DNA of 56,435 nucleotides from assembly GCA_016869765.1 (NCBI GenBank), contig VGES01000023.1, forward strand, positions 1 to 56,435. Reading direction: 5' to 3'. Shown here piece after piece: positions 6,283 through 42,891 of this stretch (positions are counted from its first letter, which is position 1; each line of letters opens with the position of its first letter). Both the position numbers and the translations under genes were made by a program. Source of the stretch: Alphaproteobacteria bacterium (GTDB lineage: Bacteria > Pseudomonadota > Alphaproteobacteria > SHVP01). The notes under the pieces are model-generated. The model saw nothing but the letters and a program-made list of their open reading frames with translations. It was not told where the DNA came from and ran no database searches.

Positions 6283-6301
6283 GACCGGGCGATCCGCGGC
6301 C

Positions 6302-7111: not shown

Positions 7112-7308
7112 CGTCATTGCTCCGCGGAAGCTTTCGTCAATGTACGCCGTAGCCCCGGTTTTTCAAGGCGCGGTGCGACTTTAGCCGCACTTGTTCAAGG
7201 GACATTCGGGTTGCTCCACGCAATCGGGCGTGGTGTTCTTGGTAGGCCGCTACCCGCGGCCCGCTTCGAGTTTCGTGGCGGCCCTTGGCGAAGAAATCGG
7301 ACGGACCC

Positions 7309-16365: not shown

Positions 16366-18033
16366 ATGGACGACGCGACGATCTGGCGAACGCCCCCGGA
16401 CGTATCGCGAGAGTACGTCGACGGCCGCTTCGGTCAGACTCACCTGCGCATCAATCGACCGGCAGCGGAGACCCGGGTTCCTCTGCTCTGCCTTCATTCC
16501 ACCGGCTTCTCCGGGCGAATGTTTGCGGCCCTGCTCGCCGATCTGGCGCGCGATCGCCTGGCGATCGCGCCCGATTCGCCGGGGTATGGCGAATCCGATC
16601 CGCCGCCGGCACCCACCACGATCCAAGACATCGCGATGGCTCATGGCGAACTGATCGACGGTCTTGGTCTGTCGCAGGTCGACGTGCTCGGGTATCACGG
16701 CGGCACGAAGACGGCCGTCGAACTCGCGCTACAGCGCCCGCGCCAGGTTCGGCGCGTACTCCTGGTCGGGGCGCCCGTCCCAAACGATGAAGAACGGGCG
16801 CGCCAGCGCGCGGCGTTCTTGCGTCCTGACTACGCCCGCGACGGCGGCCATCTGCAGCGGCGCTGGCAGTGGGCGCTTCCGTTTCGCCGACCCGACGTAC
16901 CGCTGATATCGTTGTCAAAATCGTTGGCCGAAACACTTCGACCTGGTCCTCGCGCCTGGTGGGGCTCGCGCGCCAACTATGACTATCGTCTGGAAACGAA
17001 GGTTCCCCAGCTCCCACAGCCCCACCTCGTGCTCAACCCGGACGATGACCTGACGGCACAGACGCGACGCCTGCAGGCAAGCCTCGGGGCGAAGGGCCGG
17101 TACCGCGAACTTCCCGAATGGGCGCATTGGCGACTCGACACCCGAGCCCCGCAATTCGCGGGTTGGGTCCGCGAGTTCTTGGATAGCGGATTGCCGGCGC
17201 CCTCGTCGTCCTGGCGTCTACCGCGGGTCGCCACCCCACCCCTCACGGTTCGACGCCTTTTTGTCGAGACGCCGCTCGGTCGCGTGCACTTGAGGCTGGC
17301 TCAGCCGGAGGTGCCGCTCGCCCGTCCGCTCATTCTCCTGCATATCAGCACGCTGTCGTCTCGCGTATACGAGGCGCTGCTGCCCGAGATGGGGCGGGAC
17401 CGCGTCGTCGTTGCGATCGATACCCCAGGGTTCGGCGAGTCCGAGGCCCCGGCCGAGCGACCCTCGATCGAGTTCTACGCCACCGTCGCCGACCACGTGA
17501 TCAGGGCGCTCGATCTCGGCACCGTCGACGTCATGGGCTATCACACCGGTTCGGTGATCGCGGTGGAACTCGCGCGGCAACGCGGTCCGGGGGTGGCGCA
17601 TGTCGTCATGATTTCAGCGCCGATTTTCACCCGCGAGGAGATCGCCGAACGTCACGTCCGCAATGGCCCCGAACTCCTCGAAGAAGATGGTTCGCACCTT
17701 ACACGTCGCTGGCGGCGAACGTTGTCGTTCTATGGCCCGCGCGTGAGCGACCAGATCATCGAGCGCAACTTCGCCGAAGCCATACGCGGCGGCCCGATGG
17801 CCCATTGGGGCCATTTCGCGGTCTATGATTACCCGCTTGCCGAACGCATGCCCGACCTCGACCAGCCGACACTGATCCTACGCCCGGACGACGATTGCGC
17901 CGAGATGACGCTTCGCGCCGATGGGCTTCTGCGTCGTGGCAGGATTCTCGATTGTCCGGAATACGGGTTCGACTTTCTCGATGTGCGAACCCGCGAGGTC
18001 GCCAACACCTTGCGGACGTTTTTCGCCAGTTAA
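16366..18033 (+). CDS. Double alpha/beta-hydrolase-fold protein lacking nucleophile serines
   Basis: The 555 residues hold two complete alpha/beta-hydrolase-fold units (about 18-275 and 295-553) joined by a Pro/Ser-rich linker. The nucleophile elbow, normally G-x-S-x-G, reads GYHGG at 109-113 and GYHTG at 391-395, so Ser is His in both. A candidate acid lies in NPDDD (about 225) and RPDDD in each half. A C-terminal His is visible only in the first (PEWAHW). Each half also has DG(G/S)HLxRRW (159 and 441). Such changes suggest a non-hydrolytic enzyme, unusual chemistry or a binding role. The gene is coupled to the GlcG-like gene and has a distant homologue at 24141. Confidence 0.85.
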   Translation: MDDATIWRTPPDVSREYVDGRFGQTHLRINRPAAETRVPLLCLHSTGFSGRMFAALLADLARDRLAIAPDSPGYGESDPPPAPTTIQDIAMAHGELIDGLGLSQVDVLGYHGGTKTAVELALQRPRQVRRVLLVGAPVPNDEERARQRAAFLRPDYARDGGHLQRRWQWALPFRRPDVPLISLSKSLAETLRPGPRAWWGSRANYDYRLETKVPQLPQPHLVLNPDDDLTAQTRRLQASLGAKGRYRELPEWAHWRLDTRAPQFAGWVREFLDSGLPAPSSSWRLPRVATPPLTVRRLFVETPLGRVHLRLAQPEVPLARPLILLHISTLSSRVYEALLPEMGRDRVVVAIDTPGFGESEAPAERPSIEFYATVADHVIRALDLGTVDVMGYHTGSVIAVELARQRGPGVAHVVMISAPIFTREEIAERHVRNGPELLEEDGSHLTRRWRRTLSFYGPRVSDQIIERNFAEAIRGGPMAHWGHFAVYDYPLAERMPDLDQPTLILRPDDDCAEMTLRADGLLRRGRILDCPEYGFDFLDVRTREVANTLRTFFAS

Positions 18034-18046
18034 GGCCGCGTCCGAT

Positions 18047-18670
18047 TTAGCGTGAGATCGCCATGCCCCGTTTGACGCCCGGGCGCTGCCCGACCAGATC
18101 GAACCAACGCGCGATGTTGGCGTAGGGCCGGAACCCGTCGGGCAGGCGCTGCACCGAGGTGGCCATCAGGGGAAAGGTGAGCGCGTCGGCGAGGCTGAAC
18201 TCGCTCCCCGCCAAATAGGGAACAGCCCCGAGCCGAAGATCAATTGCGTGCAAGGCGCGTTTGGCCTCCGACACGACGAACCCCGTCGCCTCGCTGACGT
18301 CCGACTTGGCCCGCAAAGTGGTGAAATATTGGACCGCCAAGTTCGGCGTGAGGTCGGTGGCCGTCACTGCGGCATAGATATAGGCCTCGGTTCGGGCTCG
18401 CGGGTCGGTGGGGAGGAGCCGACCAGTCTTCTCGGCCAGGTAGAGGCCGATCGCCAGGCTTTGGAACACCGTGATTGGTTTGCCGTCGGGCCCCTCGGTA
18501 TCGACGATCGCGGGAAGTTTCCCTTGCGGATGAATGGCCCGGTATTCAGGGGAATCCTTGAACGGGTCGCCGGATTTGAGCTCGTGCACGCGGTAAGCCA
18601 GGCCCAGTTCCTCCAAGACGATCGCCACTTTCTGGCCGTTGGCGGTGCGGATCAGATAGAAATCGATCAT
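18047..18670 (-). CDS. Glutathione S-transferase family protein
   Basis: The start is ATG 18670 (MIDFYLIRTANGQKV); the extension upstream lacks family features. The 207 residues have an N-terminal thioredoxin-like domain with the glutathione-binding GKLPAIVD and FQSLAIGLYLAE segments and an all-helical C-terminal domain (YLAGSEFSLADAL). It resembles the YfcG/Ure2p-like group, in which an Asn/Thr near the N-terminus replaces catalytic Tyr/Ser. Substrate unknown; GSTs are common in xenobiotic or lignin-type aryl-ether metabolism. It is convergent with the preceding gene and divergent from the next. Confidence 0.88.
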   Translation of the reverse strand: MIDFYLIRTANGQKVAIVLEELGLAYRVHELKSGDPFKDSPEYRAIHPQGKLPAIVDTEGPDGKPITVFQSLAIGLYLAEKTGRLLPTDPRARTEAYIYAAVTATDLTPNLAVQYFTTLRAKSDVSEATGFVVSEAKRALHAIDLRLGAVPYLAGSEFSLADALTFPLMATSVQRLPDGFRPYANIARWFDLVGQRPGVKRGMAISR

Positions 18671-18759
18671 GCCCTCGTGACCTCGTGGGAAAGCCCTTGC
18701 CGGGGTCCGCATCCCATCGCAGGATGCCCGCCGGAACAAGACCTTAGGGAGGTTTTTCC

Positions 18760-20334
18760 ATGACGTATACCCGCGCTTCGCGCCGGGTCGGCCAGCTCCT
18801 GGGAGCCGTGGCCGTTTCCGCATTGCTAGCACCTACGACGCTGCCGTCCACCGCCAGCGCCGAAACGATTCGTGCCGCCGTCCGTGGCATGCCGCCGGGC
18901 GAAGGTAATCCTTATACCGGTCGTGGCATTCCGCACGTGTTCATGTGGTCGTCGATGTTCGACTACATGGTCGAGATGGACGCGCAGGGCAATCCACTGC
19001 CGGGCGTGGCCGAGTCGTGGAAGAACATCGACAAGGACACCTGGCAGTTCACGCTTCGCCCGAACGTGACGTACACGAACGGCGAGAAACTCAACGCCCA
19101 GGCCGTCAAGGCAACGATGGATTGGCTGGTCAAGACCGACCCGGGCAAGGCTTCGGTCACCGGCCGCGACATGGTCACCGTCGTGCGCGAGGTCAACGTG
19201 ATCAGCGACACGGTGGTCGAGATCAAGACCGTGACGCCCAATCCGATCGCACCCAAGCGCATGGGTGCGGTGGCGATCACGCCGGCCAAGGCCTGGGCCG
19301 ACATGGGCCCGGCGGCATTTGCCAAAGCGCCCGCGACCGCCGGCCCCTACAAGATCGTCTATTTCAAGCCGGGCGAAGGCGAGGTCGAGGCCTATCCGGG
19401 CTCGTGGCGCAAGATCACGGGCAACGTCGATCGCATCCGCTACATCGAAATCCCCGAGCCGCCGGCGCGCGTCGCCGCGCTGCAGGGTGGGCAGGTCGAG
19501 ATTGACGTCCAGACCTCGATCGACGCGCTCGATCAACTGCGTCGTGCCGGCTTCTCGGTCGATATCGGCGCCCCGCCTCGGACCATCGGGCTTTCCCTGG
19601 TGACGATGCGGAAGAAGGATGCCCAGTCCAAGGCCGAACCGATCAGCGGTCCGCTCAAGGACGTTCGCGTTCGCCGCGCACTCAACCACGCGATCAACAA
19701 GGACGCGATCGTCCAGAACATCTTCAAGGGCGCGGGCGCGGCCGTCGGTCAGATGGCGACTCGCACGTCGTTCGGCTTCAACCCGGACATCAAGCCCTAC
19801 GCTTACGATCCGGCGCTCGCCAAGAAGATGCTGGGCGAGGCGGGTTTCCCCAACGGCTTCGAGCTCGAGGGGCGGGCGTCGGCCGGCAATGCGACGTTCG
19901 ATCTCCTCTACCAGTCGGGGGTCCAGGACCTGCAAGCCGTCGGTGTGCGGGTCAAATTCCAAAGCCAACCGTTCCCGGAATGGCTCAAGCATTGGCTGGC
20001 GGGCGACTGGCCCTACGACATGTTCGGCTTTGGCACCGATCTGACCTCGACCTTGGACGCGAGCCAATCGTTCAAGGACTACGCCTCGTGCCTGAAGGAG
20101 TCGCCTTACTACTGCAACGAGGCCGAAGTCCCCTTGATCAACGCGGCGTTGTCCGAGTTCGATCAGGACAAGCGCAAGAAGCTGTTGCAGGATCTCTTGA
20201 AGATCAACGCCGAGAATGCGCCGATCATCTTCCTGGCGGAGGGTGGCGAACCTGTGGCCTATACCAGCAAGCTGCGCAACTTCAAGCAGGCCAACACCGT
20301 GTTCAACTGGCACGAGATGGTGTTGCAACGGTAG
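18760..20334 (+). CDS. Orphan family-5 periplasmic substrate-binding protein (copy 1)
   Basis: This 524-residue SBP_bac_5 protein starts after AGGGAGG. The signal peptide ends near residue 33 (TASA-ET). The mature protein begins AAVRGMPPGEGNPYTGRGIP and contains WQFTLRPNVTYTNGEKLNA. There is no permease or ATPase gene nearby. It shares many exact segments (GNPY(T/S)G, FNWHEMVLQR-type end, PYYCNEAEVPLINAA) with the protein at 21218, so the pair arose by duplication. It may dock onto an ABC permease encoded elsewhere, or onto the one at 10141-12056. A terminator follows at once. Confidence 0.92.
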   Translation: MTYTRASRRVGQLLGAVAVSALLAPTTLPSTASAETIRAAVRGMPPGEGNPYTGRGIPHVFMWSSMFDYMVEMDAQGNPLPGVAESWKNIDKDTWQFTLRPNVTYTNGEKLNAQAVKATMDWLVKTDPGKASVTGRDMVTVVREVNVISDTVVEIKTVTPNPIAPKRMGAVAITPAKAWADMGPAAFAKAPATAGPYKIVYFKPGEGEVEAYPGSWRKITGNVDRIRYIEIPEPPARVAALQGGQVEIDVQTSIDALDQLRRAGFSVDIGAPPRTIGLSLVTMRKKDAQSKAEPISGPLKDVRVRRALNHAINKDAIVQNIFKGAGAAVGQMATRTSFGFNPDIKPYAYDPALAKKMLGEAGFPNGFELEGRASAGNATFDLLYQSGVQDLQAVGVRVKFQSQPFPEWLKHWLAGDWPYDMFGFGTDLTSTLDASQSFKDYASCLKESPYYCNEAEVPLINAALSEFDQDKRKKLLQDLLKINAENAPIIFLAEGGEPVAYTSKLRNFKQANTVFNWHEMVLQR

Positions 20335-20358
20335 TGCTTCGGCAATGATTGCCGATCC

Positions 20359-20389
20359 AGGGCCCGGCTAACCACCGGGCCCTTTTTTT
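20359..20389 (+). terminator. Rho-independent terminator
   Basis: An eight-base stem (GGGCCCGG 20360-20367 with CCGGGCCC 20375-20382) with a seven-base loop is followed by seven T. It lies 25 bases past the stop of the binding-protein gene, so that gene is expressed alone. Confidence 0.9.
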
Positions 20390-20421
20390 GGCTCGAACGG
20401 TCGGCTCTCGCCACCGTCAGG

Positions 20422-20626
20422 GTGGGTGCGCAAATTGCCGCGTTTCGAGAAGAAGTGCACCGCGAGATCGCGGCCTTGCGCGGCGAGGTTGGATCGGGAG
20501 ATCGCGGCACTTCGTCAGGAAATGAATCAACGTTTCGATCGCATGCAAGGCCGCCTAACGATCCGACTCGGGGCGCTACTGGTCGTCGCTATTGGCGCCC
20601 GCACGACCCTCCAGAGACCGACCTAG
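20422..20626 (+). pseudogene. Frameshifted remnant of a coiled-coil, membrane-anchored small protein
   Basis: One frame (from GTG 20422) reads QIAAFREEVHREIAALRGEV and then loses sense. The frame one base later reads DREIAALRQEMNQRFDRMQ, a 12-residue hydrophobic stretch (LGALLVVAIGA) and a stop at 20626. Removing one T near 20494 joins them into a single heptad-patterned protein with a C-terminal helix, similar in layout to DUF1640-type coiled-coil proteins. No plausible start lies upstream of 20422, because the terminator of the preceding gene occupies that space, so the 5' end also seems lost. Confidence 0.5.
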
Positions 20627-21105
20627 GACGAACCAGCGCGCCGTTCCATGTCCGCGACCCAGCCCTCGCGATGTGGCGCCCAGAACTTGATGTCGGTGCG
20701 GACGCGCTCGAATAGCCACCGCCCGGAACGGCGGACGTAGACATCGTCGTAATAGCCGAGGATCCAGTACGCGACCTTCTCGCCGTTCTCGACCCGCGTC
20801 GACGGGCAGGTCACCCACCAGTTTCCGCGTGCCCGATCGCCATCGATCGTAATGATCGGATTGGTCACGAGGTGCGCGATAAACGCTGGTTTGGCCGGCT
20901 GAAAGAACGCACGAATGGCGTCGCGACCCTGGCAACGGACCTTGCCGTCGGCGGTCTCCCAAATGCCATCTTCGGTGAACATCTGAGCGATTGCCTCGGC
21001 GTCGAACGGGGCATCGCATGCCACGCAGTAACGGGCCTTCAACTGCTGGATATCCTCGATGGCTTCAAGCCGAGCCACTGCGTCTTCCGTGGTTTGGCTA
21101 TTCAT
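20623..21105 (-). CDS. NTF2-fold SnoaL-like protein
   Basis: The start is ATG 21105 (MNSQTTEDAVARLEAIEDIQ), since the upstream extension is shadow. The 160 residues match the SnoaL_4 pattern: a leading helix with LKARYCVACD, then FTEDGIWE, GRDAIRAFF, and a beta-rich second half with GNWWVTCPS and a YYDD(V/I)YVRR stretch. Members include ring-hydroxylating dioxygenase small-subunit-like folds and dehydratases; function unknown. It is divergent from the second orphan binding protein, sharing a 112-base promoter region, and its end touches the frameshifted coiled-coil remnant. Confidence 0.82.
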   Translation of the reverse strand: MNSQTTEDAVARLEAIEDIQQLKARYCVACDAPFDAEAIAQMFTEDGIWETADGKVRCQGRDAIRAFFQPAKPAFIAHLVTNPIITIDGDRARGNWWVTCPSTRVENGEKVAYWILGYYDDVYVRRSGRWLFERVRTDIKFWAPHREGWVADMERRAGSS

Positions 21106-21217
21106 TGTCACGGTCCCGTTGACGGTGCGCATTGTACCCGCTGTTGCATTGCCCGGGCACGGAAAAGCACGGACAATGGAGCCGTTCGCTACAGGTGAAA
21201 AACAGGGAGGCCTAGCG

Positions 21218-22774
21218 ATGGGTGCGTTTGGACAAGTATCGAGGTTGGCGGGCGCAACGTTGCTCGCGGGTTCGATGGTCATCGGGGTGGCGCAAGCCGA
21301 AACCCTGAGGGTGGGCGTGCGTGAGTTTGCGGTAGGCAAAGGAAATCCTTACTCGGGTTGCATATGCACGCCGTCGGTTTTCGTTTGGTCGGCGGTTTAC
21401 GAGCAACTGACGCTGATCGACGAGACGGGGGACGTGAAGCCGTTCCTAACGACCGGCTGGCAGAACACCGCGCCTGACACCTGGCAATTCAAGCTTCGCC
21501 CCAATCTCAAGTTCTCCAACGGCGAAGCGCTCAACGCCGAGGCCGTCGTCGCGGCCTACGAGTGGATGACCACATCGGAAGGCAAGGCGACGTCGCAGGG
21601 CCAGCAGTACGGTCAGTTCGTGTCCTCGATCCGGGCGGTCGATGAGACGACGGTCGAGATCAAGACGCCGCAGCCAAACCCGATTCTGCCGCGCAACTTG
21701 CAGTCGTTTTCGATCGTGCCCAAGAAGGCTTGGGCTGACCAAGGGGTCGCAGGCTTTACACAGAAACCGATCGGAAGCGGTCCTTATGTCGTCGAGTTCG
21801 CTCGTGACCGTGCCATCGCGACGCCGTTTGCCGGCTCGTGGAAGGCGCGCAAGAATGTCGATCGCATCGAGGTAATCGAACTTCCCGAGGGCCCCGCCCG
21901 AGCGCAGGCGCTGGTCTCGGGACAAATCGATCTCGACGTTGCTCTGTCACGGGACGCGATCGATCAGGCCAACGCGTCGGGGATGAAGACCTTTACACGA
22001 CCGGCGACGCGGACTCTCGGCATCACCCTCGTCTCTGTGCGCAAGAAGGTGGCTGGCGGCCCGTCGGAGACTACCGAAGGACCGTTTAAGGATGTTCGCG
22101 TCCGGCAGGCCGTCAACTACGCGGTGGACAAGGACACGATCGTCAAGAATATCTTCCGCGGCGCCGGCCGGCCAGCGAGCCAGGCGGCGACATCGAAGAC
22201 GTACGGTTACAACGAGGCGGTGAAGCCCTACGCCCACGACCCCGATCGGGCCAAGCGGCTGTTGACCGAGGCGGGATTTGCCAACGGCTTCGACCTCGAG
22301 ATTCGGGCCATCACGACGGATGCGACGATTGCGCTCGTCTATCAATCGGCGGTGCAAGACCTCAACAAAGTGGGCATTCGCACCAAACTGATCTCTCAGA
22401 CCTTCGCCGACTGGCAGCGGCCATGGATCGCCGGAGATTGGGCCTGGGACGCTTTCGGTATCGGGCATGACCTGACGGCGACGATGGATGCCCTGCGAGC
22501 GTTCGATACCTTCTCGTCGTGCCTAAAGGGTAACCGCCAAGCCCCTTACTATTGCAATCAGGATGAGATGAAGTTGATCACCGCTGTGCAGGGAGAGTTC
22601 GACGCAGAGAAACGCAAGAAGATGCTGGGCGAACTTCTCGAGATGAATGCCAAGAACGCCCCGATCCTCTTCCTCGTCGAGTTCGATGAAATCATGGGAT
22701 TCAACCCCAAGATCCGGAACTTCAAGCACGTGAACTTGTGGGTTCCCTACGACGAACTCGAAGTCGGTCGCTAA
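21218..22774 (+). CDS. Orphan family-5 periplasmic substrate-binding protein (copy 2)
   Basis: I place the start at ATG 21218 (MGAFGQVSRLAG) after CAGGGAGG; the open frame upstream is non-coding. The 518 residues begin with a signal peptide (cleavage near AQA-ET), followed by GKGNPYSGCICTPSVF, where the Cys pair is absent from the paralogue at 18760. The same overall SBP_bac_5 fold and the same PYYCNQDE segment near the C-terminus show shared ancestry. Divergence elsewhere suggests a different ligand. No transporter genes adjoin, and a terminator follows. Confidence 0.92.
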   Translation: MGAFGQVSRLAGATLLAGSMVIGVAQAETLRVGVREFAVGKGNPYSGCICTPSVFVWSAVYEQLTLIDETGDVKPFLTTGWQNTAPDTWQFKLRPNLKFSNGEALNAEAVVAAYEWMTTSEGKATSQGQQYGQFVSSIRAVDETTVEIKTPQPNPILPRNLQSFSIVPKKAWADQGVAGFTQKPIGSGPYVVEFARDRAIATPFAGSWKARKNVDRIEVIELPEGPARAQALVSGQIDLDVALSRDAIDQANASGMKTFTRPATRTLGITLVSVRKKVAGGPSETTEGPFKDVRVRQAVNYAVDKDTIVKNIFRGAGRPASQAATSKTYGYNEAVKPYAHDPDRAKRLLTEAGFANGFDLEIRAITTDATIALVYQSAVQDLNKVGIRTKLISQTFADWQRPWIAGDWAWDAFGIGHDLTATMDALRAFDTFSSCLKGNRQAPYYCNQDEMKLITAVQGEFDAEKRKKMLGELLEMNAKNAPILFLVEFDEIMGFNPKIRNFKHVNLWVPYDELEVGR

Positions 22775-22798
22775 CAGCCCCGCGGACTAGGTTCTAGG

Positions 22799-22830
22799 GT
22801 CGCGCCCTGCTTGGGCGCGGCCTTTTTCTT
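22799..22830 (+). terminator. Rho-independent terminator
   Basis: A stem of seven bases (CGCGCCC 22801-22807 with GGGCGCG 22813-22819, extendable by two) with a five-base loop is followed by TTTTTCTT. It lies just after the second orphan binding-protein gene. Confidence 0.85.
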
Positions 22831-22924
22831 CTGATGTCATGACAGGTTGTCGCGACACCATGGCGTCCCGGCACGCCCCTCCCCTATACTTTTCGTCACG
22901 ACCGTGTCGAACAGGGAGACGCGA

Positions 22925-24058
22925 ATGCGCTTAGGAACGCTAGCCGGCCAACACCAGCACGCCATGATGGCGAAGATGGACCACGACGACGTCGCTCGTC
23001 AGTCCTTCGTCTCGAACTTCATGCGGGACGTGAACACGACTCTGCACGCGGGATTGGGGCACCTGTGTGATCCTCCGGGGACCCCCGCCTCGCTCGACCA
23101 AGTCATTGGTCAGCGCAAACGGATCCTCGCCGATTCCTACGGCCAGATGTGGTCGAGCCTGCGTCGCATCGGTCGCGAGATGCACACCGACGTGGTCGGG
23201 CCGGCCGTCGAACGGCAGTTGCCTGAGCTGATCGACCGCGCACGCCGGTTGCGGGATTCCAATCGCAAGCTCGGTTCGCTGTCCCTCGACCCTTCGATCC
23301 GCGCGCCGCGCTACAACACCGAGATCGAGATTCACATCAAGCCGGGCGGATATCACACCGACCTGACCGAGGACGACGTGTTCGCTGGCGCCGAGTACGA
23401 ACGCACCACGTATATGAACTCGGCCGGTGCCCTCGGGCCGATCCAGGATGGGCTGGGGCGCGACACCGCCCGGTGGGTCAAGCGCAACTACCCGACGTTG
23501 AAGCCGAAACGAATCCTCGAAATGGGCTGCACGACCGGCCAGTCGACCCTGGGTTGGGTCGATGAGTTTCCGGACGCCGAAGTCTACGCCATCGACGTCG
23601 GCGCCCCGGTGCTGCGATATGCCCACGCACGGGCCGAAGCCCTCGGTCGTCGGGTTCACTTCGCGCAGCAAGATGCCGAGAAAACCCGTTTCCCGGACAA
23701 CCATTTCGACATCGTCTGCAGCCACGCCATGATCCACGAAACCTCGGTCAAGGCGATGCACAGCATCCTGCGCGAGACGTTGCGCATCCTGAAGCCGGGC
23801 GGCCTCATGGCCCACAACGATGGCACACCGTTTCGTGACCTGGACCCCCTCGGTCGTGTCGTCCCCGACTGGGACACCCATTACAACGCAGAACCGTTCA
23901 TCACGACCCTGCGCGCGACCGACCTCACCAAATGGGCGGTGGCGGCCGGATGGAACGCGAAGCGGGTGCGAAACGGCTACAGTCACGAAGGCCCGACCAA
24001 AGGCCAGCAGATCAACGTCATCGGAGGCGCTGGCTACATACTGATCGGAGAGAAATAG
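22925..24058 (+). CDS. SAM-dependent methyltransferase with a long conserved N-terminal region (copy 1)
   Basis: The start is ATG 22925 after GGGAG. The 377 residues have an N-terminal region (1-185) unlike standard methyltransferase add-ons, then a class I Rossmann domain with motif I ILEMGCTTGQS (198-208), YAIDVGAP, AQQDAEK and LRILKPGG. The N-terminal part shares patterned identity with the protein at 27407: QMWSSL near 75, PRY at 128, then H(I/N)(K/Q)PGGY and DDV(F/Y)AGA. The acceptor is unknown. The next gene follows an 82-base gap that contains a strong hairpin. Confidence 0.85.
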   Translation: MRLGTLAGQHQHAMMAKMDHDDVARQSFVSNFMRDVNTTLHAGLGHLCDPPGTPASLDQVIGQRKRILADSYGQMWSSLRRIGREMHTDVVGPAVERQLPELIDRARRLRDSNRKLGSLSLDPSIRAPRYNTEIEIHIKPGGYHTDLTEDDVFAGAEYERTTYMNSAGALGPIQDGLGRDTARWVKRNYPTLKPKRILEMGCTTGQSTLGWVDEFPDAEVYAIDVGAPVLRYAHARAEALGRRVHFAQQDAEKTRFPDNHFDIVCSHAMIHETSVKAMHSILRETLRILKPGGLMAHNDGTPFRDLDPLGRVVPDWDTHYNAEPFITTLRATDLTKWAVAAGWNAKRVRNGYSHEGPTKGQQINVIGGAGYILIGEK

Positions 24059-24066
24059 CGCACGTA

Positions 24067-24140
24067 TTCGTCGGGACGGTGGGTCTCCAGGGTGACCGTC
24101 CCGACGAAAGCAAACAAGAAACCGGAAAAAGGAGACCCAC
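24067..24140 (+). promoter_or_regulatory. Leader hairpin whose loop is complementary to the downstream Shine-Dalgarno sequence
   Basis: A perfect 14-bp stem (24067-24080 with 24095-24108) encloses a 14-base loop (24081-24094). The bases GTGGGTCTCC at 24079-24088, eight of them in the loop, are the exact complement of GGAGACCCAC at 24131-24140, which is the ribosome-binding site and the bases up to the ATG. Pairing would give a pseudoknot that hides the ribosome-binding site of the double alpha/beta-fold gene. There is no T-tract, so it is not a simple terminator. Regulatory function is inference. Confidence 0.55.
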
Positions 24141-25817
24141 ATGTCCGACATCCGTCGTCACTTCGTCACGGTCGGGAAGCGCCGCGTCCATTACCGGCGC
24201 GCTGGTTCGGGGCCTGCAGTGGTCCTGCTCCATGCCTCGCCGTGCTCGAGCGCGGTCTTCACCATGCAGATCCGCGCCTTCGCCAAGCACTTCACGGCGC
24301 TCGGCTTCGATAGTCCCGGCTACGGCCTCTCCGATCCACTACCGCTCGAGAAACCCGAGATCGAGGATTTCGCCGATGCGCTCGACGAGACGCTCGAGGC
24401 CCTCGGGATCCGGCACTGCGCGGTCTACGGCCGCCACACCGGCGCCTCGATCGCCGTCGAGTTCGGCCGGCGCCACCCCGAACGCACCTCGTTCGTCCTA
24501 TTGGACAGCTACCCCGCGTTCTCGCCGACCGAGGGGCAGGACTACCTCGCCCGCTACTTGAAGCCTTTCGTGCCCGAGTGGGATGCCGGCCACTTGATGT
24601 GGTTGTGGTTCCGCTATCGCGACCAGCATGTCTTCTGGCCGTTCCACCAGCACACGATCGCCAACCGCGCCACCCAGGACGTCCCCGGTCTCGACTTCCT
24701 GCATCGTGGCTGTGTCGAGATCATGCAAGCGGGCGATGGTTACCGCGTTGGCTACGCCGCGGCCTTCCGACACGACGGGCTGAAGGCGGTCGATTCCCTC
24801 AAGGTTCCCGCGTGCTTCACGTCGCGCAAGAGCGACACCCTTTACCCGATGCTCGACAAGTTGCCCAAGGGGACCTGGATCGAGCGCGTTCCCTCCGACA
24901 AGCGCGAGGCAACCGTCCGTGAGGTCGAGTTGTTGCGAACGACCCCCGCGCGGGGCGAGCCGCCCCTGGCGCCGAAACCAACCTCGATCACCGGACGCCT
25001 CGATGACGGTTACGTCACGCTCTCCGGTCGCCAACTGCGCATCCGATCCGCCGGGGATGTGGGAGGATCGCGCAAGCCCCTCGTCGTATTGCATGCGGTC
25101 CCTGGCTCCAGCGCACTGCTCACGGAGCTTCTGCAGGAAGTCGGCGCGCAATGGCCCGTCCTGGCGATCGACCTCCCGGGCCACGGCGACTCTGACATGC
25201 TTGGGGAACACGCGATCGAATCGTACGCCGGTACCGTGTCGGCGGTCCTGTCCGATCTCGGGTTGAAGCGCTACCACCTCTATGGTCGGGGCACCGGGGC
25301 CACCGTTGCCGTGGCGCTCGCCCTTGCCGACGAGGCTTGCGCCCAAAGCCTGATTCTTCACGAGCCCATGACCTTGCATGAGCGCGAGGACGAAGAATTG
25401 GCGACGGTGTACGCCTTCGACGCCTCCCCCCGCTGGGATGGAAGCCATTTGACGGCCGTTTGGCATCATCTCCGCGACCAGCAACTTTGGTGGCCCTGGT
25501 TCCGGCGCATCGAATCGGCGGCCCGAACCAACCCGCCGATGGTCCAGCCCCCTTGGCTCCAGCGCCAAGTTACGGAGGTGATGAAGCATCCGCGGTCGTA
25601 TGAACCCGCGTGGCGAGCCGCTTTTCGGTATGGCATGCGGCGGCGGTTGACCGAGCTACACCTCCCCGTCATGCTCGCGTCAGCCGGAACCGACCTGTTC
25701 CACCATTGCCGTTCGATGGCTGCCAACGTCCTCCCCAAGGCGACGATTTGCGATCTCCCCGACGCCCCGGCTACGGGCGCCGCTGAGTTCGTCAAATTCC
25801 TTCGGAAGCAGCCTTAG
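24141..25817 (+). CDS. Double alpha/beta-hydrolase-fold protein lacking nucleophile serines (second)
   Basis: The 558 residues again form two alpha/beta-fold units (about 8-265 and 285-556). The nucleophile elbows read GRHTG at 97-101 and GRGTG at 382-386, so His or Gly replaces Ser. No C-terminal catalytic His is evident in either half. Both units share WD(A/G)(G/S)HLxxxW and RDQxx(F/W)WP(F/W) in the cap region (147-168 and 432-453), showing an internal duplication. It opens MSDIRRHFVTVGKRRVHYRR, a normal hydrolase beta-hairpin start. GGAG precedes the ATG but may be masked by the leader hairpin. It is distantly related to the protein at 16366. Confidence 0.85.
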   Translation: MSDIRRHFVTVGKRRVHYRRAGSGPAVVLLHASPCSSAVFTMQIRAFAKHFTALGFDSPGYGLSDPLPLEKPEIEDFADALDETLEALGIRHCAVYGRHTGASIAVEFGRRHPERTSFVLLDSYPAFSPTEGQDYLARYLKPFVPEWDAGHLMWLWFRYRDQHVFWPFHQHTIANRATQDVPGLDFLHRGCVEIMQAGDGYRVGYAAAFRHDGLKAVDSLKVPACFTSRKSDTLYPMLDKLPKGTWIERVPSDKREATVREVELLRTTPARGEPPLAPKPTSITGRLDDGYVTLSGRQLRIRSAGDVGGSRKPLVVLHAVPGSSALLTELLQEVGAQWPVLAIDLPGHGDSDMLGEHAIESYAGTVSAVLSDLGLKRYHLYGRGTGATVAVALALADEACAQSLILHEPMTLHEREDEELATVYAFDASPRWDGSHLTAVWHHLRDQQLWWPWFRRIESAARTNPPMVQPPWLQRQVTEVMKHPRSYEPAWRAAFRYGMRRRLTELHLPVMLASAGTDLFHHCRSMAANVLPKATICDLPDAPATGAAEFVKFLRKQP

Positions 25818-27406: not shown

Positions 27407-28555
27407 ATGCAACACCAGTTTCCGCACGCCATGCTCCCCGTCGCCCTCCACGACGAGCGCGCCCGCCAGGACTTTGTCCGGAGCTACAAGGTCGACGTAC
27501 TGACGCGGCTCGGTCCCGGCAATCGTGAGGTGTTCGACCGTCGGGCCAAACCCTCGTACCAACGGAAGACGGGCCAGCCCCCGCGGAGCCGGCGCGAGAT
27601 TGCGACGGCCATGCAAGGCGATGCCTTTTGGCAAATGTGGTCGTCGCTCAACCGCTCCGGACAGGAGATGATGTGGGAAGCTTTGACCGAGCCCGCCTTT
27701 CGCGAGCGTCCGCGCTTGGTCGCCCAAGCCCAGCGCCTCCGCCGGAAACGCAAGAGTTTCGGGTCGCTGCAAATTTCTGGTGATCCCGTGCCTCGCTACA
27801 TCGCGGCCGTCGACATCCACAACCAGCCCGGTGGATACGGCTTGGTTCTCGGCCAGGACGACGTCTACGCCGGCGCGCTCTACGACCTCTCGGCCTATCA
27901 CTACTCGGTCGGTGGATTGGGTCCGTTGGGATCTGATCCAGGCGACTCGACGGTCGCGTTCCTGCGCGAGCACCATCGCCGGTTCGCACCGCGACGGATC
28001 CTCGATCTCGGGGCCTCGATCGGCGCCTCGACCCTGCCGTTCGCCGATGCCTTTCCCAAGGCCCGGATCGATGCGATCGACGTCAGCGAGGGCATGATGC
28101 GATATGCCGATGCGCGGGCAAAAAGCCTTGGGAAGACTATCCATTTTTCACAGCAGAACGCCGAGCGGACGAACCTTTCGTCGGGCTCGTTCGATCTCAT
28201 CGTCTCGCATCTGTTCTTCCACGAGACCTCGGCCGCGGCCGTGCGAAATGTCATGAAAGAGTGTCACCGCTTGCTCGCGCCGGGCGGGCTCATGATTCAT
28301 TCGGACGTGCCCGAGTCGAACCAGTTCCATCCCGACCCCTATGATCAGTGGTGGCGCGACTGGACGACCCACTTCAACGCCGAACCGTTTCGCTCGACCC
28401 TTCGCGACACCAGTCTGTCGAAGGTCGCCGTCGCGGCGGGCTTCGCCCCCCGGAATGTGCGCGAGCTGAAGATCCCGAGCGCGGCGGCCGTCGGCGTCTA
28501 CAAGAAGACACACGGCTACGGGGCCGAGTGGCACTTGGTCGTCGCCACGAAATAG
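27407..28555 (+). CDS. SAM-dependent methyltransferase with a long conserved N-terminal region (copy 2)
   Basis: This 382-residue paralogue of the protein at 22925 starts after AAAAGGA. The N-terminal region has QMWSSLNRSGQEMM, PRYIAAVDIHNQPGGYGLV and DDVYAGALYD. The Rossmann domain has ILDLGASIGAST, DAIDVSEGM, QQNAERTN and CHRLLAPGG. The C-terminal HGYGAEWHLVVATK corresponds to GGAGYILIGEK in copy 1. It lies within one operon-like run with the diguanylate cyclase and an MDR reductase. Two diverged copies in one cluster suggest successive or alternative methylation of related substrates (inference). Confidence 0.85.
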   Translation: MQHQFPHAMLPVALHDERARQDFVRSYKVDVLTRLGPGNREVFDRRAKPSYQRKTGQPPRSRREIATAMQGDAFWQMWSSLNRSGQEMMWEALTEPAFRERPRLVAQAQRLRRKRKSFGSLQISGDPVPRYIAAVDIHNQPGGYGLVLGQDDVYAGALYDLSAYHYSVGGLGPLGSDPGDSTVAFLREHHRRFAPRRILDLGASIGASTLPFADAFPKARIDAIDVSEGMMRYADARAKSLGKTIHFSQQNAERTNLSSGSFDLIVSHLFFHETSAAAVRNVMKECHRLLAPGGLMIHSDVPESNQFHPDPYDQWWRDWTTHFNAEPFRSTLRDTSLSKVAVAAGFAPRNVRELKIPSAAAVGVYKKTHGYGAEWHLVVATK

Positions 28556-29696: not shown

Positions 29697-31664
29697 TCAG
29701 AGCGCGGCCACCAGTTCCAAAGCCTCGGTCGTCGCCGCCCAGAGACCGCGGGGGGCCACGCAGTCGCCAATTCCTCGCACGCCCTCCGGAATTGGACGCG
29801 AGACAGTTCCGGTGCTGAGCACGATGGCATCGAACGGGCCGAGACGTCGACCGTCGGTGAATTCGACCGATCGTCCATCGACCCGCGACACGAGCGAGCC
29901 GGCCAGTACGGCGACGCCACGAGACTTCAGGCGTTCCCCCGCCTCACCTGCTTCGCGCGTCCACTGAAGCTCTGCCTCCCCGAGTTGCCGCTCGGCGCAC
30001 GCGACGGTCAACGACGTCACGTTGCTCTGCGCCGCGATGGCCTCAACCAACGATACGGCTGGCCACCCTCCCTCCTCGTCGATGACCAAGACCCGGCCGC
30101 CGACCTTGGCCTCCCCCGCCATGACCGTCCGGCCGTGGGCCAAACCCTCGGCCCCGGGAATTCCGTCGAACAATTGCGGCCGTAGGCGCCAGACCGCGGT
30201 CCACGCTGGCGTTGCCCCGGTCGCCCAGACGATCGTTCCGGCATCGAGCGATCGGGGATCATGCACGGCCGAAGACAAACGGACCTCGACCCCCAAACGC
30301 GTCAACTCCTGCTGCCACCAGGCAATCGGTGCCAGCATCTCGCCCCGAAATGGTGCGTTTGCCGCCAAGCGCAGTTGCCCGCCCAGGGCCGGCCCAGCCT
30401 CGTGGAGCGTCACCCGAAACCCGCGCATCGCCGCCAACCGAGCCGCTTCCAACCCGGCCGGACCACCACCCACGACGGCCAGAGCCGTTCGAGTTTTGAT
30501 CCGTGACAACCTCGGGAACTCGATCTCGCGTCCTGACCTCGGATCGAGCACGCAGCCAGATCTCAGGCCACGATTCAAGAAGCCAGCGCAAGCCTGATTG
30601 CACGACATGCATGGACGGACCTCGTCGTCGCGTCCCTCGGCATACTTGGCGGCCCAGGCGGCATCGGCAACCCAGGTCCGGGCCATCGCCACGACGTCAG
30701 CCAACCCTTCCGCGATGATCCCATCGGCCTCGGCCGCCGTGCGAATCCGGCCCGCGACGATTACGGGGACGCCACTCACCTCGCGAAACCGCCGACTGAC
30801 CTGCGTCAACTCCATCCGCGGCCGGGCCATCGAGGGCATGGTATAGCCAGACGCCCGGTAGGTGCCCGCCGACAGACTCACATAGTCGACCAAGCCCGCC
30901 TTCGCCAACGCCGCCATGGCGGCCACCGAATCGTCGACCCCATAGTCGTTGTCCGCCCCGGGCGTGTAGTGCGCGACGGCCGTCCGAACACCAACAGCGA
31001 TCCCCGGACCGGCCGCCTCGCGGACGACCGCCAGAATTTCCGCGACGATCCGCAGACGATTCTCGGGCGATCCGCCGTAGGCATCGGTGCGCCGATTGAT
31101 CAACGGCGACAGAAACGACCCGAGCAGATAGTCACTTGCGGTCTGAACTTCCAGGACGTCCACCCCCGCCTGGCGGCAGCGGCGTGCGACATCGCGGTAA
31201 CACCCGATCAGTTCCCGGATATCCGCCAACGATAGCGCGCGCGGCACCTCGCCCCGAGAATTGGGAACCGCCGATGGAGCGACGGTCACCCCGCCTGCCA
31301 GCGGCGACACGTTGTATCCCGCATGCCAGAGCGTGATCCCGAATTTCGCATCCGCACGATGAATGGCCTCGGCCGATCGCGCCAACGAAGGAATCAGGTC
31401 ATCGCTGCTCACGCGAATCTGCAGACCCGCGAAGCGCTGGCTGCTCTCGTGAACCGGCAGAGACGACGCGCTGACCAGCGACGCGCCGCCCTTCGCGCGG
31501 GCGACCATATAAGCGCGGTGGCGAGCGCTGATCGTCCCCGTGTGATCGCCCAAGCGCATGCCGTGAGCGGCCATCGTGGCTCGATGCTTGAGAGTCACCG
31601 GACCCAACGTTACCGGCGCGAACAGATTCGGGTAGCGACCGTATCCAGGCGGTGCGGCGGCCAT
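29697..31664 (-). CDS. Old-yellow-enzyme/FeS/FAD oxidoreductase (2,4-dienoyl-CoA reductase/TMADH family), copy 1
   Basis: I start at ATG 31664; GTG 31667, directly after the preceding stop, is possible. The 655 residues comprise an FMN-binding TIM barrel (1-350), a 4Fe-4S Cys cluster (CMSCNQACAGF and a later C at SGCVLDP, C-x2-C-x3-C-x11-C) and an FAD/NAD(P) half (VVGGGPAGLEAARLAAMRG). Family members pass NAD(P)H electrons to reduce enoyl-CoA or enones, or oxidise methylamines. It is nearly collinear with the protein at 31967. The pair are transcribed divergently, separated by a small membrane ORF and a 116-base gap. Confidence 0.92.
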   Translation of the reverse strand: MAAAPPGYGRYPNLFAPVTLGPVTLKHRATMAAHGMRLGDHTGTISARHRAYMVARAKGGASLVSASSLPVHESSQRFAGLQIRVSSDDLIPSLARSAEAIHRADAKFGITLWHAGYNVSPLAGGVTVAPSAVPNSRGEVPRALSLADIRELIGCYRDVARRCRQAGVDVLEVQTASDYLLGSFLSPLINRRTDAYGGSPENRLRIVAEILAVVREAAGPGIAVGVRTAVAHYTPGADNDYGVDDSVAAMAALAKAGLVDYVSLSAGTYRASGYTMPSMARPRMELTQVSRRFREVSGVPVIVAGRIRTAAEADGIIAEGLADVVAMARTWVADAAWAAKYAEGRDDEVRPCMSCNQACAGFLNRGLRSGCVLDPRSGREIEFPRLSRIKTRTALAVVGGGPAGLEAARLAAMRGFRVTLHEAGPALGGQLRLAANAPFRGEMLAPIAWWQQELTRLGVEVRLSSAVHDPRSLDAGTIVWATGATPAWTAVWRLRPQLFDGIPGAEGLAHGRTVMAGEAKVGGRVLVIDEEGGWPAVSLVEAIAAQSNVTSLTVACAERQLGEAELQWTREAGEAGERLKSRGVAVLAGSLVSRVDGRSVEFTDGRRLGPFDAIVLSTGTVSRPIPEGVRGIGDCVAPRGLWAATTEALELVAAL

Positions 31665-31667
31665 CAC

Positions 31668-31850: not shown

Positions 31851-31966
31851 GGTCGGCCCCGGAGGCGACATCCTAGCCCGAGGCCCGCCCAAGGCCCAAG
31901 CGGGCCAGCACATTGGCAGGGAGGGCGCCACCCGATAGGCTTGCCCCCTCGAGGGGAGATCCAGCC

Positions 31967-33925
31967 ATGCCGTCGTCACGTGAACGCTACCCGCACCTTC
32001 TGTCGCCGATTCGCCTGGGGCCGGTGACGCTCAACAACCGTGCCGTGATCAGCGGCCACTCGATGCACCACGGGGACGGCCGACCGGGGATATCGGATCG
32101 CTTTCGCGCCTATTTGGCCGCACGGGCGCGCGGTGGGGCCGGCTTGGTCGGCATCGAATCGGCGCCGATGCACCCGAGCACAGTCAACGGCACGAGCCAA
32201 GTCGAGACCCATCGGGACGAGGCCATTCCTTCGCTGGCGCGCCTCGCCCGAGAAGTCCACGACGCGGGTACACGCTTGTCGATCATCCTTTGGCATGGCG
32301 GGCACAACGTGCCCCACCGGGCTGGACACTACGCCGTCGCTCCGTCCCCGATCCCGAGCTTCCGCGTTCGCGAGGTTCCGAAGCCACTGACCCGTCGGGA
32401 GATCAAGGACATCGTCGCTGGTTATGGCTCGGCCGCCGGACGATGTCGGTCGGCCGGGATCGATGTCATCGAGATCCAGACATCCACCGACTATCTCCTC
32501 GGTTCGTTCATGTCGCCCACGCTCAATCGGCGCACCGACGAATACGGTGGGTCGCTGGACAACCGAATGCGGGCGGTGGCAGAGGCCTTGGAATCCGTAC
32601 GCAAAGCGGCCGGCGATGCGATCGCTGTCGGCGTGCGTACCTCGATCGCCCATCTGGTGCCGACGGACCCCAATGATTACGGCATCGAACAATCGTTGGC
32701 TGCCATGGAATGGCTCGTTCAGCGCGGGCTCGTCGACTACGTGAGCCTGATCACCGGATCGCACTGGTCGATGCCGGAAACCATTCCGCCCATGACCAAG
32801 CCGCGGCCGCAGCTCGCAGATCAGGCGGCGATCTTCAAACGCGCCCTGAAAGTCCCTGTAACGGTCGCCGGCCGCATCCGCACCGCCGCGGAGGCCGAGG
32901 CGATCATCGCCGGGGGCAAGTCCGATCTGGTCGCCATGGCCCGGACATGGATCGCGGAGCCGGAGTGGATCAGGAAATTGGTCGAGGATCGGGAGGACGA
33001 AATCCGCCCATGTATGACCTGCAACCAGGCGTGCATCGGCTTCGTCACCCGGGGCCTCCCCGGGAGTTGCAACATCAATCCTGCCGCGGGCCGTGAGTTC
33101 GAATTGGGCGATCTCTCACCGAGCCGGCAACCAAAACGCATTGCCGTCGTCGGCGGCGGGCCGGCCGGTCTCGAAGTGGCGCGGGCCGCGGCCCTGCGCG
33201 GCCACCGCGTAACACTCTACGAGGCGAGCGCCCGATTGGGGGGGCAGATGCGCCTCGCAGCGGAGGCCCCGAACCGAAGCGAAATGCTCCCCGCTATCGC
33301 ATGGTGGGAGCGCGAACTGCAACGCCTGCAGGTTCGCGTGAACCTCAAACACGCGATCAAGCCCGATACACGCCTCGACGCCGATCAGGTCGTTTGGGCG
33401 GTCGGTGCGATCCCTGCCGCAACAGCCATTTGGCGTATCCGGCCGCATCTAGTGGACGGCATCCCTGGTGCAGAGACACTCCCACACGGCCGCGACGTGA
33501 TCAGCGGCCAAGCCAAGGTTTCAGGCCGCGTGTTAATCATCGATGAGGAAGGCGGATGGCCGGCGATTTCGCTCGCCGAGACCCTCGTGGCCCGCCCGAA
33601 CGTGCGGTCCGTCACGGTGGTGACCAGCGAAGCGACTCTCGGTGGTCCAGAGCTTGTCTACTCCTTCGAGGAGGGCGACGTCCAAGCGCGGATCAAGGCC
33701 TCGGGCATCATTGTCGAGAGCGGCAAACTGGTAGCCTCGGTCGACGGCTCCCGCGCCATCCTCACCAACGGCACCGCGCTAGGACCGTTCGATTCGATTG
33801 TGCTTTCGACGGGGACCTTGCCCCGCGAAATCCCCGAAGACGCGTTGGCGGTAGGCGATTGCATCGCGCCGCGCGGCATCTGGGGCGCCACCCACGACGC
33901 CAACCGCCTCGCCCGAACGCTCTAG
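31967..33925 (+). CDS. Old-yellow-enzyme/FeS/FAD oxidoreductase, copy 2
   Basis: The start is ATG 31967 (MPSSRERYPHLLSPIRLG) after GAGGGGAG. The 652 residues have an FMN barrel with the active-site neighbourhood LWHGGHNVPH, a 4Fe-4S motif (CMTCNQACIGF then C at GSCNINP) and FAD/NAD(P) domains (VVGGGPAGLEVARAAALRG). It shares runs of identity with copy 1 (STDYLLGSF, NRRTDEYGGS-like, GPFDSIVLSTGT), so the divergent pair is a recent duplication. Probable substrates are unsaturated acyl-CoAs, enones or N-methylated compounds. Confidence 0.92.
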   Translation: MPSSRERYPHLLSPIRLGPVTLNNRAVISGHSMHHGDGRPGISDRFRAYLAARARGGAGLVGIESAPMHPSTVNGTSQVETHRDEAIPSLARLAREVHDAGTRLSIILWHGGHNVPHRAGHYAVAPSPIPSFRVREVPKPLTRREIKDIVAGYGSAAGRCRSAGIDVIEIQTSTDYLLGSFMSPTLNRRTDEYGGSLDNRMRAVAEALESVRKAAGDAIAVGVRTSIAHLVPTDPNDYGIEQSLAAMEWLVQRGLVDYVSLITGSHWSMPETIPPMTKPRPQLADQAAIFKRALKVPVTVAGRIRTAAEAEAIIAGGKSDLVAMARTWIAEPEWIRKLVEDREDEIRPCMTCNQACIGFVTRGLPGSCNINPAAGREFELGDLSPSRQPKRIAVVGGGPAGLEVARAAALRGHRVTLYEASARLGGQMRLAAEAPNRSEMLPAIAWWERELQRLQVRVNLKHAIKPDTRLDADQVVWAVGAIPAATAIWRIRPHLVDGIPGAETLPHGRDVISGQAKVSGRVLIIDEEGGWPAISLAETLVARPNVRSVTVVTSEATLGGPELVYSFEEGDVQARIKASGIIVESGKLVASVDGSRAILTNGTALGPFDSIVLSTGTLPREIPEDALAVGDCIAPRGIWGATHDANRLARTL

Positions 33926-41849: not shown

Positions 41850-42641
41850 CTAAGCGGCGAGGCGCGGCCCGACGCAAAAGTTCGTTATCGCCTCGGCGTA
41901 GTGCTTGGGATGCTCGGTATACGGCAGGTGGCCGCACTTATCGATGAGCGTCACCTTCGCGGCGGGCAAATGCTTCTTGAATTCCTGGGCGTAGCCGACC
42001 GGGGTGAATTTGTCCTGCATGCCCCAAACGATATGGACCGGAACACGGATGCGATGCAGCCACTTCGGCATATCCGGATCGTGTCGGCTCTCTCCGGCGA
42101 GGATTTGCGACGTCGCCCGGTTCTTCTTGTTGATCGGGTTGTCGTCGGCATTGGCCGGAAGGCGAGCAATCATCTGCTCGGCCAACGCTTGATCGTAGAG
42201 CACCATCCGCATGGTTTCGGCCTGGGTGCGCGGCATCGCCGAGGGCCGCGGGATGTCGGGATTGCTGAGCCCGCCGGCACACACCAGTGTCAGGGTCTTG
42301 AGCGGCGTCGGATTGACATAGGCGACGGTGGCGGCGATCCAGCCGCCGATCGAAGTGCCGACCAGGTGAACGCCGGTCAAACCGAAATGACCCATGAACT
42401 CGTGGTAGTAGAGCGCCATGTCGCGCATCGACCCGAGCCAGGTCGGCATGTCGGATTCCCCGTAGCCGGGATGTTGCGGCACAATGACGTCAAAAGACCG
42501 CGCCAACTGTTCCATGAACGGCATCACCGTGCTGACGACGCCCGCGCCGTGCAGATAGAGCAGCGGCTCGCCATGGCCGCCACGCTGGACCATGACCTTG
42601 CAACCGTTGATGACGTGTTGTTCCTTGACAAAAGTCGCCAC
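41850..42641 (-). CDS. Alpha/beta hydrolase (meta-cleavage-product-hydrolase-like)
   Basis: The start is GTG 42641 (VATFVKEQHVINGCK) after GGGGAGGAG; the longer frame is shadow. The 263 residues keep a full catalytic triad: Ser in GTSIGG, Asp in WGMQDKFTP and His in KCGHLPYTEHP. Unlike the two double-domain proteins in this window, it should be an active hydrolase, probably of C-C or ester bonds as in MhpC/BphD-like enzymes. It precedes the third old-yellow-type reductase in an operon. Confidence 0.88.
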   Translation of the reverse strand: MATFVKEQHVINGCKVMVQRGGHGEPLLYLHGAGVVSTVMPFMEQLARSFDVIVPQHPGYGESDMPTWLGSMRDMALYYHEFMGHFGLTGVHLVGTSIGGWIAATVAYVNPTPLKTLTLVCAGGLSNPDIPRPSAMPRTQAETMRMVLYDQALAEQMIARLPANADDNPINKKNRATSQILAGESRHDPDMPKWLHRIRVPVHIVWGMQDKFTPVGYAQEFKKHLPAAKVTLIDKCGHLPYTEHPKHYAEAITNFCVGPRLAA

Positions 42642-42891
42642 GCGCTCCTCCCCTGGCCTCGCCGGGCCTGACGCCCCTGTTTGGTTCCTGTGGATAGCAT
42701 GTTTCCCGCAGCCCCGGGAGGCGCTCGCGCATGCACCGGCGCGCGTGCCACCGCCCGTGCGACGAGCCCCGCACCCCCGCGACACTGGCGTTGGCCGGGC
42801 GCGCCTTGGTGACCCCCGTCTCCGCTGTTAGAATACTCGCCTCACGAGCCCGCACATGATGACCGCGGGCATCAAGACCAATCGAGGTTCC
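42642..42891. other. Divergent intergenic region
   Basis: These 250 bases separate the alpha/beta hydrolase from the quinone reductase. It holds the promoter candidate listed at 42806-42834 facing right. I see no second ORF with coding character. Confidence 0.5.
42806..42834 (+). promoter_or_regulatory. Candidate sigma-70 promoter of the quinone oxidoreductase gene
   Basis: TTGGTG (42806-42811), 17 bases, then TAGAAT (42829-42834) fits the vegetative -35/-10 layout, about 58 bases before the ATG at 42892. Confidence 0.5.

Follow-up and report, generated by a model that had tools for sequence, protein, structure and literature searches.

P1 and P2 are two double alpha/beta-hydrolase-fold proteins encoded on a 56,435-nt stretch of alphaproteobacterial DNA (GenBank contig VGES01000023.1; this whole stretch is the window referred to below), and they are members of a coherent, family-wide clade carrying His at the nucleophile elbow rather than a local oddity. 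We propose, at a probability of roughly 0.5, that this clade is an undescribed one among the alpha/beta-hydrolases and that its elbow His (G-x-H-T-G) is catalytic, acting as a base. Both genes are intact open reading frames (ORFs) with two Pfam Abhydrolase_1 domains apiece, and the four elbow motifs lie where an earlier note on this DNA had placed them: GYHGG at residues 109-113 and GYHTG at 391-395 of P1, and GRHTG at 97-101 and GRGTG at 382-386 of P2. AlphaFold2 models (mean predicted local distance difference test score, pLDDT, of 93 for P1 and 83 for P2), together with Foldseek/VIA matches, give both proteins the canonical fold with its beta5-elbow-alphaC arrangement. In the models H111, H393, H99 and G384 fall precisely on the turn between beta5 and alphaC, as the note had predicted, and none of the four elbows holds Ser, the residues being His, His, His and Gly. 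The HLxxxW cap motif that it described recurs in all four units, and the hydrolase at 41850, cited there as a contrast, does retain its Ser elbow and a C-terminal His (Table 1).

A His elbow conserved across a clade

The elbow His is not a chance substitution, since H111 and H393 are invariant among 16-24 homologues of the P1-type double and an elbow census of the wider family is dominated by His. To be free of bias, this census used only domains obtained by whole-protein searches; a pattern scan of contigs had HTG in its pattern and was therefore biased, and its loci were excluded. His occupied the elbow in 100/116 domains scoring >60 bits and in 98/106 scoring >100 bits, where Ser was found in 0/106. 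The lone Ser of the census (GASVG) was in a P2-type C-domain that is degenerate and scored below 100 bits, and Ser hydrolases from the same loci scored <60 bits. The P2-type N-domain has His at the elbow in 9/10 sequences, and an Asp elbow was seen in only one paralog (L018). His is the majority state in the clade, and remote relatives also keep it, as GHHTG and GMHTG in other proteobacterial families and as GFHTG and GTHTG on Novosphingobium plasmids. The search for further GxHxG proteins of this fold that the note had called for has uncovered a coherent family far larger than four units.

In a maximum-likelihood tree the His-elbow clade is set apart from the Ser outgroups with a Shimodaira-Hasegawa-like approximate likelihood ratio test (SH-aLRT) value of 96, and it splits into a P1-type group (SH-aLRT 99) and a P2-type group (SH-aLRT 93); the tree is a quick build, and its outgroup branches are long.

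Residues around the elbow and a proposed mechanism

Statistics for the other active-site positions cover 202 domains with a His elbow. H36, in the oxyanion loop, is found in every domain that covers the position, residue 38 of the same loop is Ser or Thr in 97%, and Thr directly follows the elbow His in 96%. The acid motif has Asp in all P1-like domains, and the corresponding acid after beta7 is present as D227, D509 and D232 in P1 and P2. A His elbow and an oxyanion Ser/Thr occur together in both domains of P1 and in the N-domain of P2, and the P2 C-domain has neither (GRGTG, HAVP). The His after beta8 behaves differently. Three of our four units lack it, as the note had stated, H254 of P1 being the only one present; this loss, however, is a trait of subgroups, and about 73% of P1-like domains and 60% of all His-elbow domains retain the residue. 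It is missing in 28/29 members of a GDHTG subgroup, and Asp or Glu replaces it in P2-type N-domains, in which S33, H99, T100, D232 and D253 are nearly invariant.

Because the beta8 His is missing or replaced in P2-type N-domains and in the GDHTG subgroup, the elbow His is the sole candidate base among their triad positions; these domains also keep the Asp after beta7, and an elbow His-Asp base is therefore favoured. We suggest that the elbow His, polarised by this retained Asp, would serve as the active-site base and either activate water or abstract a proton from the substrate, and that the canonical beta8 His would be an accessory residue, dropped by several subgroups. In alignments with haloalkane dehalogenases, the oxyanion Ser/Thr of the family corresponds to the HGNP Asn, and the Thr after the elbow His to the GHDWG Trp; in LinB these two residues stabilise the halide (PMC11351021). 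By homology, therefore, the pocket facing the His is predicted to be a hydroxyl-lined anion site, in which the oxyanion Ser/Thr (H-x-[S/T]-P) and the post-elbow Thr would stand where dehalogenases have their halide site.

Two exceptional lineages have changes at the elbow and at the acid together: a Lys elbow is accompanied by Asp to Ser at the acid (L019, the sole exception among ten P2-type sequences at both sites), and an Ala elbow by DD to AT (L100 and L103). Several points weigh against a catalytic elbow base. The acid persists in some members that have no elbow His (GYFTG, GYYTG), and with only about 6 independent His losses on the tree, any coupling to the Ser/Thr or the Asp has too few events to be assessed; a tree-based test for coupling of the elbow His to Ser/Thr38, Asp219 and further positions yielded just 3-6 independent pairs. 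The pairing of the elbow His with the Asp in space is a predicted one, and the conservation of the His could reflect binding instead of catalysis.

The main rival, which we rank second to the elbow His-Asp base and consider unlikely, is a displaced Ser nucleophile: the oxyanion Ser/Thr would attack, with the elbow His and the Asp as its base, in a transposed triad that would make these proteins covalent hydrolases or acyltransferases. A Ser or Thr here in 97% of domains with a His elbow, compared with 40% of His-less ones, would fit such a triad, as would the near invariance of Ser33, His99 and Asp232 in P2-type N-domains from which the beta8 His is gone. The 97% versus 40% contrast, however, is phylogenetically confounded (about 2/6 independent pairs), a Novosphingobium member has Asn at the site (HQNP) and two members have Ala (HMAP), and the Ser is retained in some members with an Ala or Phe elbow. 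A broader formulation covers either role of the Ser/Thr and is held more tentatively than the base reading itself: a cross-phylum class in which Ser and His are swapped, with a catalytic elbow His, an oxyanion Ser/Thr serving as nucleophile or as anion pocket, and a dispensable beta8 His.

Non-catalytic binding proteins or receptors, with the pocket kept and hydrolysis lost, are a less probable explanation than the displaced Ser. All four domains lack a canonical nucleophile, the degeneracy of P2 C-domains is clear, and families without catalytic residues do occur in the superfamily (PMC11878206); yet the elbow is fixed as His across phyla rather than relaxed, the Thr, Ser/Thr and Asp around it are fixed as well, and a high copy number in catabolic gene clusters suits enzymes better. 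A metal site is improbable. Here the elbow His would join the beta8 His/Asp and the acid or a cap His (from the WGH and SHL motifs) in a metal-dependent hydrolase or oxygenase, and each domain does have several conserved His (in His-elbow domains, cap H154 in 83%, WGH in 68% and the beta8 His in 60%). These ligands vary by subgroup, however, since GDHTG and P2-type domains have no beta8 His and the cap His is variable. Least probable, and very doubtful, is an elbow His that is itself the covalent nucleophile, forming an acyl- or alkyl-imidazole intermediate: the residue occupies precisely the place of the nucleophile, but no precedent was found in the open-access literature searched, and the role of general base takes fewer assumptions.

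Relation to known alpha/beta-hydrolases

By profile and by structure, the nearest known proteins are Ser-His-Asp hydrolases, including esterases, the 3-oxoadipate enol-lactonase PcaD and meta-cleavage C-C hydrolases such as HsaD and DxnB2. The family has in common with them the fold, the position of the cap, the acid after beta7 and the H that starts the oxyanion loop; unlike them, it has a His elbow, an HxSP rather than HGx oxyanion loop and a beta8 His that is often gone. Foldseek/VIA neighbours of P1 are likewise ordinary esterases, enol-lactonases, C-C hydrolases and dehalogenases, and its C-domain superposes on esterases with a VIA Z of about 30 and a root-mean-square deviation of 2.2 A over about 250 residues. 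These searches returned common esterase and dehalogenase neighbours only, and the family's absence from their results is not evidence that it is absent. Haloalkane and haloacetate dehalogenases and epoxide hydrolases, with their Asp elbow, set a precedent for a changed elbow residue. They need the Asp nucleophile and a beta8 His, whereas this family has a His elbow with a dispensable beta8 His, and none of the P1 and P2 units has the Asp elbow of haloalkane dehalogenases and epoxide hydrolases.

The cofactor-free 2,4-dioxygenases HOD and AqdC depend on a His-Asp dyad with His251 (PMC10548524). In contrast to these enzymes, the family keeps the elbow His and several of its subgroups drop the beta8 His; a HOD-type beta8 His-Asp base is missing from three of the four units and would be possible for the P1 N-domain only. 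Ser-less lyases and CGI-58 (ABHD5) are superfamily members that work without an elbow Ser (PMC11878206), but no conserved elbow His is described for them in that source. The same superfamily-wide survey, from 2024, lists S, D, C or none as the elbow nucleophile and describes the beta8 His as 'totally conserved' (PMC11878206); a large family whose elbow His is fixed and whose beta8 His is optional breaks with both rules.

In Pfam, only broad hydrolase-fold models (Abhydrolase, Thioesterase, Hydrolase_4, Ndr) match P1 and P2, and in NCBIfam neither protein reaches any cut-off. A profile search of the PDB with the single-domain family gave 74 bits at best, for a dehalogenase, compared with >100 bits for members, and found no structure of a member in the copy searched. 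Literature searches for GxHxG or His elbows found nothing relevant in open-access sources, most subscription journals lying outside their reach. Generic fold annotation aside, this large family is uncharacterised. The alpha/beta-hydrolase fold is among the most studied of enzyme folds, and a catalytic elbow His, if true, would be a new kind of active site within one of the largest enzyme superfamilies. For these proteins the annotation 'alpha/beta hydrolase' would imply a serine mechanism that is impossible at their elbow.

Distribution, proposed fusion and probable decay

The genome of the window (4.0 Mb) encodes 11 full-length P1-type and 12 long P2-type doubles, so that P2 has 11 further long copies, and it gives 70 domain-level matches at E <= 1e-18. 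P1 has paralogs and orthologs that reach 50-53% identity. P1-type and P2-type doubles are both present in 9/9 relatives of the same GTDB family. Outside that family they are sparse: strong matches were found in 3/298 genomes drawn evenly from the phylum, and these keep a GHHTG or GMHTG elbow. Further members occur in Hyphomonas and, beyond the Proteobacteria, in the Actinobacteria (Nocardioides, Dactylosporangium); the GFHTG and GTHTG members of Novosphingobium are on megaplasmids. Amplified to tens of copies by aquatic bacteria of an alphaproteobacterial lineage, the family may help them to degrade complex dissolved organic matter.

The note had proposed a family of paired folds. The family exists, but pairing does not define it: members are fused doubles, adjacent pairs of single-domain genes or lone single-domain genes (in Alpha- and Gammaproteobacteria), and single-domain and tandem-gene members share the GYHTG elbow. 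Within both the P1-type and the P2-type group, N- and C-domains tend toward separate branches. In one unfused tandem pair (L090), one gene groups with the N-domains and the other with the C-domains, which makes fusion from a tandem pair the simplest history. We suggest that single domains gave rise to tandem pairs and these to fusions, along two lines, P1-type and P2-type. Elsewhere in the same genome, at 5480-8051 of locus L024, three single-domain P2-type hydrolase genes stand in direct tandem.

The second domain of P2 has taken a different course. Among its paralogs, the C-domain lineage has G, S, N, Q, W or Y at the elbow and has lost the oxyanion Ser; the leading His of the oxyanion loop is often Pro and the acid is often lost. 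In two P2-type doubles from outside the alphaproteobacterial family (L080 and L123), the C-domain keeps GSHTG and HASP. The simplest reading of these sequences is that the P2 C-domain was once active and has decayed in this lineage, and this degenerate domain is probably non-catalytic, serving as a structural element or as a lid or dimer partner. Of the His-based or binding role that the note had offered for all four units, the first is favoured for three; the GRGTG unit more probably has a binding or structural role, because the oxyanion Ser and often the acid are lost as well.

Table 1 Features of P1, P2 and reference genes in the window
Feature	Position	Strand	Basis or remark
P1, double alpha/beta-hydrolase-fold protein, P1-type (GYHTG) subfamily	16366..18033	+	555 aa ORF
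P1 N-domain oxyanion-loop Thr46	16501..16503	+	Ser/Thr in 97% of His-elbow domains
P1 N-domain elbow GYHGG, His111 at nucleophile position	16690..16704	+	between strand 105-110 and helix 112-123 (AlphaFold2)
P1 N-domain acid Asp227 after beta7 (strand 220-225)	17044..17046	+	invariant in both P1-type alignments; position from model
P1 N-domain His254 after beta8	17125..17127	+	sole canonical C-terminal His among the four units
P1 C-domain oxyanion-loop Ser328	17347..17349	+	Ser/Thr in 97% of His-elbow domains
P1 C-domain elbow GYHTG, His393	17536..17550	+	between strand 387-392 and helix 394-409 (AlphaFold2)
P1 C-domain acid Asp509 after beta7	17890..17892	+	alignment and model
P2, double alpha/beta-hydrolase-fold protein, P2-type subfamily	24141..25817	+	558 aa ORF
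P2 N-domain oxyanion-loop Ser33	24237..24239	+	Ser in 10/10 P2-type sequences
P2 N-domain elbow GRHTG, His99	24429..24443	+	between strand 93-98 and helix 100-111 (AlphaFold2)
P2 N-domain acid Asp232 after beta7	24834..24836	+	Asp in 9/10 P2-type sequences
P2 N-domain Asp253 where the canonical catalytic His is expected (after beta8)	24897..24899	+	Asp in 9/10, Glu in 1/10 P2-type sequences
P2 C-domain elbow GRGTG, Gly384	25284..25298	+	between strand 378-384 and helix 385-396 (AlphaFold2)
Ordinary Ser hydrolase, contrast case and outgroup	41850..42785	-	GTSIG elbow, C-terminal GH
opp-like ATP-binding cassette (ABC) transporter operon	8175-12056

Gene context

The window is a catabolic island in which an oligopeptide-type ABC transporter and several solute-binding proteins are encoded alongside three ene-reductase/FAD proteins and zinc-type dehydrogenases. 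Its other genes include those for cupins, an acyl-CoA-dehydrogenase-like protein (PF08028), a SnoaL protein, a GST and an M24 peptidase. Enzymes of these kinds recur beside family members in other genomes, along with CoA-transferase III, MmgE/PrpD, cyclase and VOC proteins. This context, with its monooxygenase-like acyl-CoA dehydrogenases, ene-reductases, VOC proteins, CoA transferases and solute-binding proteins, suggests catabolism of small organic substrates, and family members would act on such compounds within catabolic gene clusters.

Two SBP_bac_5-type solute-binding proteins of one sequence cluster (18760-20334 and 21059-22774) flank the SnoaL gene, separate from the opp-like operon. 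Three paralogous fusions of an FMN ene-reductase with an FAD/NAD part (PF00724) lie within 12 kb, at 29697-31667 (-), 31913-33925 (+) and 39784-41793 (-). The gene at 36704-37486 (-), beside that for the acyl-CoA-dehydrogenase-like protein, gives a weak, above-cutoff match to WelO5 (PF22814, a carrier-protein-independent halogenase family). Three actinobacterial loci (L114, L124 and L105) share a common cluster at the GxHTG gene, comprising CoA-transferase III, MmgE/PrpD, VOC and FAD_binding_2 genes.

The window also encodes two members of a class I methyltransferase family (22847-24058 and 27407-28555) whose N-terminal region, about 190 residues long, carries no annotation; the 4.0-Mb genome has about 60 paralogs, mostly at 37-50% identity. 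A functional link between the hydrolases and these methyltransferases was rejected for this genome, as 5/30 hydrolase clusters have a copy at <=5 kb against 5.4 expected. Six megaplasmids of a single genus, Novosphingobium, carry the methyltransferase family together with close GxHTG hydrolases, about 6-26 kb apart. One locus on a Novosphingobium plasmid (L152, NZ_CP141945.1 307611-328327) has LLM and FAD monooxygenases and an M24 peptidase nearby.

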